A DNA stretch of 64,000 bases from the NCBI GenBank assembly GCA_009783355.1, contig WRHH01000003.1:1-64000 (forward strand), written 5' to 3'. The DNA comes from Synergistaceae bacterium. Its GTDB lineage: Bacteria > Synergistota > Synergistia > Synergistales > Aminobacteriaceae. Made by a program: the position numbers and the translations under genes. Under the pieces are notes generated by a model, which saw only the letters and a list, made by a program, of their open reading frames with translations, ran no database searches and had not been told where the DNA came from. Positions 18,573 through 32,403 of this stretch are shown here, piece after piece; within the stretch, counting starts at the first letter, position 1; each line of letters opens with the position of its first letter.

Positions 18573-18620
18573 AGTAATACCTCCTTCAAAAATCATTTTA
18601 AAAACTACCTGTAATTATTC

Positions 18621-18734
18621 GTAGGGGACGCAGCCCTCGGCGTCCCATGCCCAACAGAAATAACACCGTCAACTAACCAAATAACCGGCAATTCATAGTA
18701 TTCTGGCGCGGGTCGCTCAGGGCGCGACCCCTAC
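18621..18734. repeat. REPIN 1 (two inverted REPs, 114 bp)
   Basis: Starts GTAGGGGACGCAGCC and ends GGCGCGACCCCTAC, so the outer ends are inverted copies of GTAGGGG. Each end is itself a hairpin (GGGACGC...GCGTCCC type on the left, GGGTCGC...GCGACCC on the right). The spacer carries words conserved in all copies: CCAACAG, AACACCGTCAA, ATAACCGGCAA, TTCATAGTATTC. Confidence 0.9.
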
Positions 18735-18764
18735 CCCTTCATTACATGCCGACCGTATTTATTC

Positions 18765-18929
18765 GTAGGGGACGCAGCCCTCGGTCGCTCCCGGTCTTCC
18801 TGACCTCCGCGACACTAGGTCTTCCTGACCGTCGGCGTCCCGTGCCCAACAGAAATTATATCGTCAATGTACCAGAAAACCGGCAATTCATGGTATTCCG
18901 GCGCGGGTCGCTCAGGGCGCGACCCCTAC
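18765..18929. repeat. REPIN 2 with a 51-bp insert in its left REP (165 bp)
   Basis: Same ends and spacer as REPIN 1, but its left hairpin is interrupted by one copy of a 51-bp unit (TCGGTCGCTCCCGGTCTTCC and onward, with AGGTCTTCCTGACCG). Its length equals 114 + 51 bp exactly. Confidence 0.9.
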
Positions 18930-18975
18930 CCCTTCATTACATGCCGACCGTGTTTATTCGTAGGGGACGCAGCCC

Positions 18976-19090
18976 TCGGTCGCTCCCGGTCTTCCTGACC
19001 TCCGCGACACTAGGTCTTCCTGACCGTCGGTCGCTCCCGGTCTTCCTGACCTCCGCGACACTAGGTCTTCCTGACCGTCGGTCGCTCCCG
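18976..19090. repeat. 51-bp tandem units nested in a REP
   Basis: Two full units (18976-19026, 19027-19077) and 13 bases of a third. Each unit contains two GGTCTTCCTGACC words. The same unit occurs once inside REPIN 2 at about 18781-18831. Confidence 0.9.
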
Positions 19091-19097
19091 TGCTAAT

Positions 19098-19610
19098 CTA
19101 CAAATAATATTCGTCTTTTCCCCATCTTAAAGGATTTGTGTCAATATACTCCCATTTTTCTCTGTAATCAGCCTCGTTTCTGATTATATGGTCGTAGTAA
19201 GAACGTTGCCATATAGATTTGCCATATTTTTTTGATGTTAATGATTTTAATGCGTTTACAATTTGCGGAATAACTGCTTTCGCGGGGGAGGCGCTCCGTG
19301 GCGAACCGTCTTTGTACGCCAATGTCGTTCCGCTTTCAATAGAAATAATCAAATGCACATGATTTGGCATAATAACATATTTGTCTAATTTCACAAATTC
19401 AGAGTACATTTTTATATTTTCAATATGCAGTTTCACCATTTCGCCCATTTCGCTCAATTCTACGGTCTGGACGAGCCCAGCGGCTTCCTCTGCGATTTTG
19501 CCTAATATTCTGCATTTATCTTTCACACATATCGTTAAAAAATACGCTCCGTCCAGACTATAATCGTATTCTTTTAGTCGGTTAGTTTTTCTATTTTGGT
19601 ATTTGTCCAT
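19098..19610 (-). CDS. REP-associated tyrosine transposase (RAYT, IS200-like Y1 family), copy 1
   Basis: About 170-residue single-domain HUH transposase. Seen: the N-terminal DYSLDGAYFLTICVKDK strand, the HUH metal motif IMPNHVHLIISI, the catalytic-Tyr context SYYDHIIRNEADYREK and the end motif YIDTNPLRWGKDEYY. AGGTG six bases upstream supports the ATG at 19610; a GTG three codons earlier would start inside it. RAYTs bind and mobilise REP/REPIN sequences, and this gene is flanked on both sides by halves of the REPIN found nearby. A small GC-rich palindrome in the middle encodes DGSPRSASPAK and may be an internal REP relic. Confidence 0.92.
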   Translation of the reverse strand: MDKYQNRKTNRLKEYDYSLDGAYFLTICVKDKCRILGKIAEEAAGLVQTVELSEMGEMVKLHIENIKMYSEFVKLDKYVIMPNHVHLIISIESGTTLAYKDGSPRSASPAKAVIPQIVNALKSLTSKKYGKSIWQRSYYDHIIRNEADYREKWEYIDTNPLRWGKDEYYL

Positions 19611-19689
19611 TTTAGTCACCTGTATATTAGTAATTCATTGTTTCTGGCGCGGGTCGCCGAGGGCTGCGACCCATACTGTCTCTTCCCTC

Positions 19690-19800
19690 AATTCATGGTT
19701 TTTAGAACAACCCGCCCATGGGTTCCTTCCGTTATCTCAAACCTATTCATAACTTACCATAGATGTGCATACATGGTCTGCTTTGATGTTGAGTTCCTGC
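19690..19800 (-). ncRNA. Candidate omega-RNA (reRNA) overlapping the tnpB 3' end
   Basis: TnpB systems express a guide RNA from the end of tnpB through the IS right end. Here the sequence past the stop contains a hairpin (AACCC-ATGGGC-GGGTT) directly before the probable IS boundary, as expected for the scaffold end. Position and existence are inferred from family behaviour. Confidence 0.35.
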
Positions 19801-20942
19801 TTCACAGAGGTGACTTTTTCCACTAACTCTCCACAGGCTGACACCGCGTAACTCTCGGCATTTTTCTTTAAATTGATTGCTGCATTTATATCTCTATCGT
19901 GTTGATAGTTACATGTTGGGCATTCCCATTCTCTCATTGATAAATCCAATCCTTCATTCTTCTCGCCGCATTTTGAACACATTTTGCTTGATGGATAAAA
20001 TCTGTCTGCTATTACAACTATACTTCCTGTCATTCTTGCTTTGTACTCCAGTTGGCGGCGAAACTCAAAGAAACTCATATCAAGAACTGCCCGGGCAAGT
20101 CTGTGGTTTTTTACCATGCCCGATACGTTCAAGTCTTCAATCCCTATTATTCCGTATTCTCTCGTTAACATTGTCGTTAGTTTATGAGTTTCATCATTAC
20201 GAATGTTTCCCACCCTTGCGTAAGTTCGTGAAAGTTTTCTCTGCGTTTTCTTATAGTTTTTTGACTTCTTTTCTCCCTCTTTCGCTCCCTGCTTTCTTGA
20301 TAACGACTTATTGAGCATACGTATTCTCGTCAGCAATTGTTTATGTGGTTTTGCTCCAGTGATTTTTGTCCCGTCATCCAAAGTCGCTAAATCCTTTACT
20401 CCTAAATCCACTCCTACAGCTTGGCTTTCGCTGTTGTGGACCGGCGCGGGGGGTTCCATTTCAACTTGGATTGAGATATACCACTTATCTGCCGTCCTGC
20501 TTATTGCCGCTCCCATTATTTTTCCATCAAATCTTAATCTCTCTGACATTCTTACATATCCCAAATTCGGAATACGAATCATTTTATCTTTAATGCTAAA
20601 CTGATCGTTCGATAATCCAAAACTATCATGATGTCCCTTTTTCTTGAATTTTGGAAATTCCGCACGGTGTGCGAAAAAATTATCAAATGCTTTCCCTAAA
20701 CCCTTTATTGCAAGTTGCGGTGCACATTTTGTCACTTCAAACATCCATGGATACGATTCACGCTTCGTCGCGTTTAATTGCTTTCTTAATAATCCCTCTG
20801 TTACTTTTTCGCCATTCTCATAAAGCTTTTTCCATTCAGACAAAGCCCAATTATATGCAAAACGCGCAACTCCGCACGCCTTGGCGAAATATGTTCGTTG
20901 TTTTTTGTTCGGCTCAAACTGTATTCGGTGCGCTAATATCAT
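19743..20942 (-). CDS. tnpB: TnpB, RNA-guided endonuclease of IS607/IS605 elements
   Basis: Predicted 399 residues with an intact RuvC-like triad: VGVDLGVKDLATLDDG (Asp), IIGIEDLNVSGM (Glu), and YQHDRDINAAINLKKN (Asp). A four-Cys zinc finger (CSKCGEKNEG then CPTCNYQ) lies before the last motif. The N-terminal OrfB_HTH region reads RIQFEPNKKQRTYFAKACGV. TnpB proteins cut DNA next to a short target-adjacent motif using a guide RNA from the IS end and help keep the element in the genome. No truncation is visible, so it may be active. Confidence 0.94.
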   Translation of the reverse strand: MILAHRIQFEPNKKQRTYFAKACGVARFAYNWALSEWKKLYENGEKVTEGLLRKQLNATKRESYPWMFEVTKCAPQLAIKGLGKAFDNFFAHRAEFPKFKKKGHHDSFGLSNDQFSIKDKMIRIPNLGYVRMSERLRFDGKIMGAAISRTADKWYISIQVEMEPPAPVHNSESQAVGVDLGVKDLATLDDGTKITGAKPHKQLLTRIRMLNKSLSRKQGAKEGEKKSKNYKKTQRKLSRTYARVGNIRNDETHKLTTMLTREYGIIGIEDLNVSGMVKNHRLARAVLDMSFFEFRRQLEYKARMTGSIVVIADRFYPSSKMCSKCGEKNEGLDLSMREWECPTCNYQHDRDINAAINLKKNAESYAVSACGELVEKVTSVKQELNIKADHVCTSMVSYE

Positions 20943-21574
20943 TCCTCTGACTCCGCCTCTACAACTTTCTTCACATCTTCTAACAGTTTTTGATTCTTAT
21001 GGCTTCTTGAACCATATAGACGCGCTGAAAATACAGTGATGATTTCCAATACGTCCTTTGCCAAATCTTCCTCGAATGTCGTATCTTCGCCCTGATTTAA
21101 TATAACAACTTCAACCTGTTTAGCTTCACATATAGCAAAAATCAATTCCGCGCCAAAACGCAACAGCCTGTCTTTATGAGTGATAACAAGACGACCTGCT
21201 TTTTCGGATAATATATCACTTATCAGGCGCTTAAGTCCCTTCTTATGATAATTCATACCAGAACCTAAATCGCTGACTATTGTATATGTCCAACCTTGCT
21301 GAGCGCAGTATAGCTCTAGAACTTGCTTTTGGCGCTCTAAATCGCCTTTTTGGTCGTGACTGGAAACACGCGCGTATGCTATTGTTCTTTTCGCCTCTTT
21401 ATTTATGCTTAACTCGCGATATTTTTCGGGCTTAAGCTTGGAGATATCATACCTTCGGTGTCCAGACGCTGTTTTTTCGGGCGTAAGTCTCCTTGCCTTG
21501 TCCCATCTTCTCAACGTTGATATTGACACACCTAATATTTTTGAAGCTTCGCCTATAGTTACATATCTATTCAT
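20939..21574 (-). CDS. tnpA: IS607-family serine recombinase TnpA
   Basis: About 211-residue transposase: an N-terminal MerR-like HTH (YVTIGEASKILGVSISTLRR) and a small serine-recombinase catalytic domain with the active-site Ser in IAYARVSSHDQKGDLERQ, plus RLVITHKDRLLRFG. The start is set at the ATG at 21574: the 12-codon upstream extension overlaps an exact TTGACA box and an AATAAT box, and the ATG lies about 8 bp past the -10, implying a nearly leaderless mRNA. It is translationally coupled to tnpB by a 4-bp overlap. Confidence 0.92.
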   Translation of the reverse strand: MNRYVTIGEASKILGVSISTLRRWDKARRLTPEKTASGHRRYDISKLKPEKYRELSINKEAKRTIAYARVSSHDQKGDLERQKQVLELYCAQQGWTYTIVSDLGSGMNYHKKGLKRLISDILSEKAGRLVITHKDRLLRFGAELIFAICEAKQVEVVILNQGEDTTFEEDLAKDVLEIITVFSARLYGSRSHKNQKLLEDVKKVVEAESEE

Positions 21575-21581
21575 AATGAAT

Positions 21582-21610
21582 ATTATTGCATACATATAAA
21601 TAGATGTCAA
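21582..21610 (-). promoter_or_regulatory. Promoter of the IS607 tnpA
   Basis: On the minus strand TTGACA (21610-21605) and AATAAT (21587-21582) are separated by 17 bp. The transcript would start at or within a few bases of the tnpA ATG at 21574. Confidence 0.6.
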
Positions 21611-21631
21611 GCAAACTGTTTACACCCCATA

Positions 21632-21659
21632 AAAATGGGCGAATCCTTATGACCCGCCC
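21632..21659 (-). terminator. Intrinsic terminator of the RelA/SpoT-like gene
   Basis: On the minus strand a GGGCG / CGCCC stem with a long loop is followed by ATTTTTAT. It lies 31 bp past the stop of the gene at 21691 and separates it from the IS607 element. Confidence 0.5.
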
Positions 21660-21690
21660 GTACAATTATTATTTGAAATCAAAATGGAGA

Positions 21691-24103: not shown

Positions 24104-24385
24104 GTAGGGGCGGCTTGTAGCCGCCCGCGCCGGAACACCATGATTTGCCGGTTATCTGGTTCATTGACGGTGTTATTGCTATTGGGCACGGGACGCCGAG
24201 GGCTGCGTCCCCTACGGTTTTCATAATATGGGACGCCGAGGGCTGTGTCCCCTACGAATCAACACGGTCGGAATACCATGATTTGCCGAATTTCAGGCCG
24301 TAGGGGTCGCGCCCATGAGCGACCCGCGCCGGAAATTTACGGGTTGCACAAAATGAACCGTAGGGGTCGCGCCATGGGCGACCCG
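24104..24385. repeat. REPIN 3 (24104-24215) plus three single REPs
   Basis: REPIN 3 runs from GTAGGGGCGGC to GCGTCCCCTAC with the conserved spacer, 112 bp. It is followed by single REPs at 24230-24255 (GGGACGCC type) and at 24299-24326 and 24359-24385 (GGGTCGC type). The preceding ATGGATGTTTGAGCACCG sequence also recurs at 25217 and beyond. The 420-bp gap has no gene apart from the 5' end of the next one. Confidence 0.85.
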
Positions 24386-25104: not shown

Positions 25105-25133
25105 GGGATTAGGGATTAGGGATTAGGGATTAG
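25105..25133. repeat. Heptanucleotide array (GGGATTA)4
   Basis: Four tandem GGGATTA units directly after the TPR gene, followed by an AAAGACAAAG-rich tract. Confidence 0.85.
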
Positions 25134-25208
25134 AAAAGACAAAGGCAAAAGACAAAAGACAAAGACGAAAGACAAAGGCAAAAGGCATGATAATTTTCAA
25201 TTTCAATT

Positions 25209-25740
25209 TATGAAACATGGATGTTTGAGCACCGTATAAGGTTTTACGGGTAGGGGCGGCTTGTAGCCGCCCGCGCCGGAACACCATGATCTGCCGGTTG
25301 TTATTGGGAACAATGCAAAATGCAAAAACAACCATTTTCATTTTGCGAAAACATGGATGTTTGAGCACCGTATAAGGTTTTACGGGTAGGGGCGGCTTGC
25401 AGCCGCCCGCGCCGGAACACCATGATCTGCCGGTTGTTATTGGGAACAATGCAAAATGCAAAAACAACCATTTTCATTTTACGAAAACATGGATGTTTGT
25501 GCACCGTATAAGGTTTTACGGGTAGGGGCGGCTTGTAGCCGCCCGCGCCGGAACACCATGATCTGCCGGTTTTATTGGGAACAATGCAAAATGCAAAAAC
25601 AACCATTTTCATTTTACGAAAACATGGATGTTTGTGCAACGCATAAGGTTTCACATGTAGGGGTCGCACTCGTGGGCGACCCGCGCCGGAATACCATGAT
25701 CTGCCGGTTTTATTGGAAACAATGGAAAATTATAAACAAG
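25209..25740. repeat. Four tandem units of about 136 bp, each with one REP
   Basis: The word ACATGGATGTTTG starts at 25215, 25351, 25487 and 25622 (periods 136, 136, 135). Units 1-3 contain the GGGGCGGC...GCCGCCC REP, and unit 4 the GGGTCGC...GCGACCC REP. Each REP is followed by GCGCCGGAA and a CCATGATCTGCCGG spacer word. Units end in an AAAACAACCATTTTCATTTT tract. No gene is visible. Confidence 0.9.
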
Positions 25741-26583: not shown

Positions 26584-27150
26584 GCGGCGAGTGGCGAGTG
26601 GCGAGCGGCGAGAAAAGACAAAAACGAAACGATGTTGCAAAAATGCAACGATGCAGTAAAAAAGTAGCGTTGTAGGGGTCGCACTCGTGGGCGACCCGCG
26701 CCGGAACTTAAAGACAGGGATTAGGGATTAGGGATTAGAAAAGACAAAAGATAGAGACAAAAGACAAAGACTTTGAATTGCCCATAGTTATGGCGCGTAG
26801 GGGTCGCACTCGTGGGCGACCCGCGCCGGAACACCATGATTTGCCGGTTATTTGGTTCATTGACGGTGTTATTGCTGTCGGGCACGGGACGCCGAGGGCT
26901 GCGTCCCCTACGAATTAACACGGTCGGCGTGTAATTAAGGCCGTAGGGGTCGCACTCGTGGGCGACCCGCGCCGGAATACCACGATTTGACGGTTATTTG
27001 GTTCATTGACGGTGTTATTGCTGTTGGGCTTAAAGACAGGGATTAGGGATTAGGGATTAGAAAAGACAAAAGATAGAGACAAAGACAAAGACTTTGAATT
27101 GCCCATAGTTATGGCGCGTAGGGGTCGCGCCATGAGCGACCCGCGCCGGA
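26584..27150. repeat. Repeat-filled gap: heptads, single REPs and REPIN 4
   Basis: Contents in order: GAGTGGC-type heptads (26584-26612); REP 26672-26706; (GGGATTA)3 at 26717-26738; REPIN 4 at 26797-26911; REP 26943-26976; (GGGATTA)3 at 27039-27060; REP 27118-27150. The stretch from the heptads through the REP (AAAGACTTTGAATTGCCC, ATGGCGC) occurs twice, about 320 bp apart. The 1.17-kb gap from 26548 to 27718 has no gene. Confidence 0.85.
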
Positions 27151-31860: not shown

Positions 31861-32403
31861 TCAAAATAATGATACGGGTGGTTTTTTGCCGTCTGTTTTT
31901 ATTGTTTCGCCATTGTATAAACAATCTTCCGTCCATCTTTCAGGATTGTATTCAATATATTCCGCAATTTGCTGATAGTCATAATTATTACGAATAATGT
32001 GATCGTGGAATGATTTTTGCCAAACCGAATACCCAACCTTGATAGAAATTGCACGTTTCCATTGTCCTATCATGCGTGAAACTGTAGGGGCGGCTTGTAG
32101 CCGCCCGTTTACATCATACCGCCAATCGCCATAAATACCGATGAGCATATGAACATGGTTTGGCATAATTACGGAACAATCAACGCATACCTCGTCATAA
32201 ACTTGTGATAACAACAATATTTCATTCTCTATTATTTCTCCAACGCGCGTTAGCCGCAGGCTGCAAGATACCTCTCCTATTTCGATTGATGCGAATATTT
32301 CCTTTCGGTCTTTTGCGCAAATCGTCACAAAATACGCGCCGTCCTGACTGTAATCGAAGTCTTTATACCTATTCGGTTTACGTTTTGTGTATTCGATTGT
32401 CAT
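31861..32403 (-). CDS. REP-associated tyrosine transposase (RAYT), copy 2
   Basis: 180 residues with all family marks: YSQDGAYFVTICAKDR, the HUH motif IMPNHVHMLIGIYG, SFHDHIIRNNYDYQQIA (catalytic Tyr) and YIEYNPERWTEDCLY. GGTGAG upstream supports the ATG at 32403. The striking feature is a complete REP hairpin inside the gene (32084-32106) that is read in frame as GRLQAAPT, between the HUH motif and the catalytic helix. It is about 40% identical by eye to copy 1, so the two RAYTs are distinct lineages. Confidence 0.92.
   Translation of the reverse strand: MTIEYTKRKPNRYKDFDYSQDGAYFVTICAKDRKEIFASIEIGEVSCSLRLTRVGEIIENEILLLSQVYDEVCVDCSVIMPNHVHMLIGIYGDWRYDVNGRLQAAPTVSRMIGQWKRAISIKVGYSVWQKSFHDHIIRNNYDYQQIAEYIEYNPERWTEDCLYNGETIKTDGKKPPVSLF
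32084..32106. repeat. REP element inside the RAYT copy 2 reading frame
   Basis: GTAGGGGCGGC...GCCGCCC hairpin identical to the intergenic REPs at 24104 and 31478. It is translated as part of the RAYT without breaking the frame. Confidence 0.9.

Follow-up and report, generated by a model that had tools for sequence, protein, structure and literature searches.

A RAYT gene between inverted REPs in a Synergistaceae genome, and REPINs probably derived from RAYT genes in its relatives

The window, the whole 64,000-nucleotide stretch of Synergistaceae DNA analysed here, contains a gene for a REP-associated Y1 transposase, RAYT1, between two inverted REPs. We think it likely that this locus is a REPtron whose 3′ REP comes from a tandem REPIN array, that RAYT1 spreads REPs and REPINs in trans, and that a route from RAYT gene to REPIN is visible in relatives of the same order.

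RAYT1 and its flanking REPs

RAYT1 and the repeats around it lie in one intergenic block.

18597–21690, no strand: plsY to relA-like intergenic block, 3.09 kb, against about 124 bp in G001, a genome of the same genus
18621–18734, plus strand: REPIN R1, 114 bp; REP (ACGC type), 58-nt spacer and inverted REP (TCGC type)
18735–18764, no strand: array linker, 30 bp, recurring at 18930–18959 with one mismatch
18765–18929, plus strand: REPIN R2, 165 bp; like R1, but its left hairpin is interrupted at 18783 by a 51-bp repeat
18960–19093, plus strand: REP 3′ of RAYT1; third array unit, with two 51-bp repeats added (18978 and 19029) and 130/131 identity to the R2 region
19098–19619, minus strand: RAYT1, REP-associated Y1 transposase, 173 amino acids from a GTG start; HUH (NHVH) and catalytic Tyr (EYI) intact
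19625–19676, minus strand: REP 5′ of RAYT1; solo-REP type, with a degenerate GTATGGG head
19685–19724, minus strand: further degenerate REP tail adjoining the IS607 element, read from the sequence
19725–21610, minus strand: IS607-type element; TnpB (19743–20942) and serine recombinase TnpA (20939–21610)

RAYT1 is a RAYT/TnpAREP protein, with the fold of a Y1 HUH transposase, the HUH motif and a single catalytic tyrosine. The REP_Tyr_transpos model NF047646 matches it with an E value of 1.7e-19 and 70 bits, under the curated equivalog cut-off of 80 bits, and the only significant relative in a sequence search of the PDB is the E. coli TnpAREP (4er8, E 6e-6). The same entry heads the comparison of the predicted structure (mean pLDDT 76) with PDB folds (E 2.2e-8, TM 0.57), followed by the ISDra2 and IS608 transposases. 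The HUH residues do not vary among 13 aligned relatives, and all but one truncated copy have the catalytic tyrosine. An alternative start, the ATG at 19610, is preceded by AGGTGA and would give a protein of 170 amino acids. A Pfam scan of RAYT1 returned nothing at E 0.001, and Pfam Y1_Tnp, used as a genome-wide probe, missed both RAYT1 and a second RAYT gene, RAYT2, its sole find being an IS200-type gene on contig C34. The window's genome thus also holds a separate IS200-type Y1 transposase gene (L009, G000:C34:18436-18789), which scores 131 bits to Pfam Y1_Tnp. RAYT1 itself is present once in this genome (80% complete), RAYT2 being just 41% identical to it, and so follows the RAYT pattern of one copy per genome.

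The sequence-only reading had placed a complete RAYT gene between two inverted REPs, and this is borne out: the ORF is intact, and the REPs that enclose it have their heads at 18960 (GTAGGGG) and 19676 (GTATGGG, degenerate). Between the left hairpin and the stop codon lie approximately 8 bp, and between the right hairpin and the start approximately 30 bp; both hairpins have the expected orientation. With REPs on its two sides that are inverted and occur again elsewhere in the genome, the rayt locus is a REPtron.

The two flanking REPs had also been taken for the same half-elements that make up the nearby REPINs, and here the comparison turns out differently. A tandem array runs through R1 and R2 into the left side of RAYT1, with GTAG heads at 18621, 18765 and 18960 and a period of 144 bp (the second interval, 195 bp, is 144 + 51), in which the 51-bp repeat occurs once in R2 and twice in the left REP of RAYT1. 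The stretches 18705–18835 and 18900–19030, which take in the 30-bp linker and some of the 51-bp insert, are identical at 130 of 131 positions. The left half of the RAYT1 locus resembles R2 because the REPIN array was tandemly duplicated, and the likeness is therefore uninformative on transposon structure. The right REP, compared with REPs collected from the genome, scores highest against solo REPs (42, 41 and 37, versus 30 for the right half of R1). The shared junction words, on which the earlier reading also relied, belong to the REP tail: AATTCAT and GTGC fall within roughly GYGCYRRAWACYWTGAATTGCY, which solo REPs also carry, so a match is expected of any REP beside a gene. Past GTGC, the 3′ end of RAYT1 is unlike the left spacer of the REPINs, with no match above chance (the best, to R2, has p 0.02 per test and approximately 0.1 after taking the maximum).

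A 25–26-bp minisatellite (GGTCKTCCTGACCTYCGCGGCACT) forms arrays at about a dozen loci and is expanded inside REP hairpins; its positions include 18783, 18978 and 19029 in the window and the loci L098, L113, L116 and L123.

On the other side of RAYT1, the IS607-type element, whose end at 19725 was placed by comparison with a second related copy on contig C15, adjoins the degenerate REP. In G001, the plsY and relA-like genes lie 124 bp apart with a terminator between them, and the block of REPINs, RAYT1 and IS607 element is missing. A comparison of empty and filled sites, proposed in the earlier reading alongside a test for precise excision footprints, could be made at this one orthologous locus, which lacks the whole 3-kb block and holds no element-sized insertion or footprint. 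The difference shows a lineage-specific gain or loss of the entire block, of inferred polarity, and not excision of a REP–RAYT–iREP unit.

REPs and REPINs across the genome

Further REPINs lie downstream in the window.

24104–24215, minus strand: REPIN R3, with a right hairpin of CGGC type
26797–26911, minus strand: REPIN R4, full length
26943–27029, minus strand: truncated REPIN that keeps the spacer and right REP but lacks the left one

The four REPINs that the earlier reading described, starting at 18621, 18765, 24104 and 26797, are confirmed with their common design of inverted GTAGGGG ends, two unlike hairpins and a 58-nt spacer. The genome has seven full-length REPINs (R1–R4 and three elsewhere), 75–89% similar in the genome search; element counts beyond the stretches extracted around matches are taken from search tables. 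R1–R4 and the other copies are REPINs in the accepted sense, being inverted REP doublets with a short spacer at several loci. Sites matching GTAGGGGNNGC number 127 genome-wide, versus 11 when the pattern is reversed. Of the 127, 26 cluster at 18.6–36.4 kb of the window (17.9 kb, around RAYT1 and RAYT2), where approximately 1.1 would be expected (Poisson p ~7e-27).

Two other kinds of repeat are found among these REPs. Positions 25250–25700 consist of direct tandem repeats of approximately 136 bp with one REP each and a common 5′ region, an array of solo REPs and not of REPINs. Telomere-like GGATTA(G) runs stand beside REP clusters at 25110–25135, 26720–26740 and 27035–27060, and also adjoin solo REPs on other contigs (L108 and L124).

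REPIN spacers and RAYT sequences in the window's genome

The sequence-only reading proposed that the REPINs are internal-deletion derivatives of a RAYT transposon. For the window's genome this part of the proposal does not hold up, as the spacers match neither RAYT; in two relatives, G163 and G150, its core is supported by sequence, by way of REPs inside the RAYT gene. When the spacers of six REPINs were compared with the RAYT1 and RAYT2 coding sequences on both strands, none of the 24 comparisons was convincing (best p 0.02). A genome search with RAYT1 and its surroundings recovered REPs, the 51-bp repeat and IS607, and no coding fragment; a search with RAYT2 returned only its own internal REP. 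By these comparisons the spacers have no apparent homology to the RAYT interior, as MITE-like derivatives would, and we find no support for a deletion-derivative origin in this genome.

REPs inside RAYT genes

RAYT2 and several RAYT genes of relatives carry REPs at two sites within the coding sequence, site A and site B.

31861–32403, minus strand: RAYT2, second RAYT, 41% identical to RAYT1
32084–32107, plus strand: intact REP in the RAYT2 reading frame at site B, encoding NGRLQAAPT
32250–32279, minus strand: decayed REP in RAYT2 at site A, score 13 versus a null maximum of 10
19281–19307, minus strand: RAYT1 loop GSPRSASPA at site B, a weak and only possible decayed REP, sub-threshold at the DNA level

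RAYT gene copies in G011 have in-frame REPs at site B (NGRQDAAPT, just past the HUH strand), the same place as in RAYT2, and also at site A (VGAASCRP, just ahead of the conserved LTxxG motif). The RAYT genes of G023, G150, G152 and G163 likewise have in-frame REPs at both sites. The intragenic REPs are of GCGACC type in G023, GCGCGC type in G150, GACGCC type in G152 and G163, and CGGC type in G011, and at site A the reading phase is identical in all (GTA GGG). In the RAYT1 model both sites are loops, residues 45–50 lying between two strands and residues 98–109 having a pLDDT below 50. We do not claim decayed REPs in RAYT1: GSPRSASPA resembles the REP-encoded GTPRAASPT, but the DNA score at site B is below threshold and that at site A marginal.

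REPs of the GTAGGGGCGGC type also surround RAYT2, which may be their partner. G011 holds at least five RAYT copies, approximately 90–96% identical (L082, L083, L084, L085 and L086), unlike the usual single-copy RAYT; three have an identical end point (GACGTTTTC) although their surroundings differ, and two have a common left end at a GTAG REP. Most G011 RAYTs have no REP on the 3′ side. In G023 (L198, G023:C22, reverse complement 1440–1600 and 1990–2080), the site B REP of the RAYT is expanded by in-frame GGGCGACCGGAAATTAAAGAC repeats, and a RAYT C-terminal fragment enclosed by REPs follows immediately downstream.

RAYT-derived REPINs in two relatives

In G163, a search with the RAYT gene found matches at 57 places, among them eight dispersed elements that consist of a REP, the RAYT central segment and an inverted REP, one of which (C90) runs off its contig; the relatives are fragmented drafts, and several of these elements lie near contig ends. 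VIMPNHIH is encoded within the segment, and all eight elements lack the same 52 nt of the gene. Identity of the spacer alone to the RAYT gene is 76–84%, with z scores against shuffles of 14 to 22 across the G163 and G150 sets. At one insertion, C53, the two flanking genes are directly adjacent in the same-genus genome G161 (C107), which in this one case provides the corresponding empty site. Some copies share 40 to 50 bp outside the inner REPs, so the moving unit may exceed the REP–segment–iREP. The G163 RAYT gene itself (L136 1419–2830, G163:C34) contains approximately three tandem repeats of the stretch that starts at site A and ends with the 3′ REP, and has thus become a BIME built from transposase gene segments.

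G150, in which the REPs are of another type, has four dispersed elements of the same make-up (the second REP is decayed in C26a), 77–80% identical to the RAYT gene. All four lack the same 40 nt, exactly the HUH codons, and a fifth copy, C235, is an undeleted fragment. Three of the elements form a graded series from gutted RAYT to clean REPIN: C42 retains pieces of the upstream region, N terminus, centre and C terminus; C38 retains 36 nt ahead of site A and the centre; and in C26b little is left beyond the stretch between the GTAG at site A and the CTAC at site B.

In both genomes the spacers are thus homologous to RAYT, with an internal deletion common to dispersed copies, and the comparison supports the view that these REPINs are RAYT central segments whose ends are intragenic REPs, not those that flank the gene. 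The direction is from RAYT gene to REPIN because the segment encodes the catalytic motif conserved across the whole transposase family.

Eight genomes of the phylum have a strong relative of RAYT1, and only two of them show such elements. G011 yielded RAYT gene copies and REPs, with no RAYT-derived REPINs recognised, and the RAYT-gene search of G152 found no dispersed copies. The 80 matches in G023 were rejected as RAYT-derived spacers, being mainly REP arms and tandem linkers; the exception is a RAYT C-terminal piece between REPs just downstream of the gene.

Alternative explanations

The strongest form of the deletion proposal, in which REP–RAYT1–iREP is an autonomous transposon in this genome and R1–R4 are its internal-deletion derivatives, strikes us as very improbable. 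The general layout is the same, the left half is nearly identical to R2, the process is documented in relatives, and old REPINs from a fast-evolving RAYT could have faded in homology; yet the right REP is unlike the right halves of the REPINs, the spacers match neither RAYT (with p 0.02 the best of 24 tests), the 3′ end of RAYT1 does not fit the spacer, and RAYT1 is single copy with no recurring coding fragment. The opposite extreme is that RAYT1 merely sits in a REP-rich stretch, with REPs inserted independently on either side and a layout without functional meaning. Conservation of REP–rayt–iREP in many RAYTs (PMC2817692, PMC6006769) and hairpins that are oriented as expected, approximately 8 bp from the stop and 30 bp from the start, make this distinctly doubtful, even if the left REP belongs to a tandem array extended by recombination, the right REP is of another subtype, local REP density is very high and the G011 RAYTs mostly lack a 3′-side REP.

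For the relatives, the rival is that the G163 and G150 elements are decayed RAYT pseudogenes left by duplication and not mobile REPINs. One deletion junction is common to all copies within each genome, C26b ends exactly at the two GTAG heads, contexts differ among copies and the site of one insertion is empty in a genome of the same genus. We accordingly regard decay of duplicates as unlikely, while acknowledging that C42 still reaches from N terminus to C terminus, that C235 is an undeleted fragment and that RAYT is multi-copy in G011.

On the reading that we prefer, the locus is a REPtron in which two inverted GTAG REPs enclose a single-copy RAYT gene, the 3′ REP being the last unit of the tandem REPIN array (BIME). 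RAYT1 most likely binds the GTAG-tagged REP hairpins on single-stranded DNA and, by analogy with its family, would spread REPs and REPINs in trans, which would account for the dense local REP cluster. Two points weigh against it: REPs cluster around RAYT2 too, so that some of them may be served by that gene, and the right REP has a degenerate head (GTATGGG). In the relatives, REPs lie in frame at two RAYT loops, the HUH-bearing centre between them has lost an internal piece, and the shortened REP–segment–iREP unit is dispersed. Presumably RAYT drives this dispersal through the REPs within its gene. A similar beginning, its trace since lost, may lie behind the REPINs of the window, and the internal REPs may be renewed in step with the REP family of the genome.

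A wider generalization has, in our estimate, an even chance of being right: that RAYT genes of this phylum hold REPIN ends within their own coding sequence, at two fixed surface loops, and give rise to new REPIN families when the centre is mobilised and loses the transposase motif, with internal REP types that differ between lineages, match within a gene and change together. RAYT2 would be a member of this class, and RAYT1 may hold decayed remnants.

Relation to known systems

In the standard REPtron two inverted REPs enclose a rayt gene, which gives it an IS-like look (Nunvar 2010, PMC2817692); REPs clustered near their rayt and a rayt with its downstream REP in a BIME have both been reported (PMC2817692). 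The window's locus resembles REPtrons (Nunvar 2010, PMC2817692; Corneloup 2021, PMC8266576) in its single-copy RAYT, inverted GTAG REPs, 3′ REP near the stop codon, REPs clustered near the gene and 3′ REP shared with a tandem BIME, as for Smal4. It differs in that its host is outside the proteobacterial groups of the first definition and its second RAYT has a REP within the reading frame. The REPINs are, like those first described (Bertels and Rainey 2011, PMC3116915), dispersed inverted REP doublets with a short spacer, in several copies and tandem clusters; unlike those, their two REPs are of unlike subtypes, and the spacer in G163 and G150 is recognisable as RAYT coding sequence. Bertels and Rainey (2011, PMC3116915) conjectured that REPINs are what remains, in non-autonomous form, of an IS200-like ancestor.

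The predicted Y1 fold is shared with IS200/IS605 elements, whose non-autonomous derivatives also keep hairpin ends and lose the transposase. Unlike there, the bounding hairpins in G163 and G150 lie inside the transposase gene, and RAYT1 lacks an element-like copy number. In four reported BIMEs that contain a rayt 3′ end (Nunvar 2010, PMC2817692), rayt sequence likewise became an inter-REP segment; the relatives differ in using the central HUH-coding segment, in the common internal deletion and in dispersal to other loci. REPs also occur inside other genes, with GTAG heads supplying stop codons (Di Nocera 2013, PMC3733652), and intragenic REPs and Rickettsia palindromic elements (PMC3733652) are similarly palindromic repeats read through in frame; here, by contrast, the repeats sit at two constant positions in the RAYT gene itself, and each gene has a single REP type. 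A literature search that mostly fell outside subscription journals found no report of in-frame REPs at fixed RAYT sites, or of REPIN spacers made from RAYT coding sequence.

Taken alone, the window's locus is an ordinary REPtron in a poorly sampled group. Across its relatives, the step from RAYT gene to REPIN is readable in the sequence, in shared deletion junctions, intermediates and two genomes with different REP types. The evolution of REPINs was called unknown in the paper that defined them (PMC3116915); a visible step bears on that open origin and makes the question testable. In-frame REPs at fixed RAYT loops would be a new constraint on the coevolution of transposase and target, and, if RAYT genes of this phylum do carry their own REPIN ends, the gene would be the nursery of its own non-autonomous elements.
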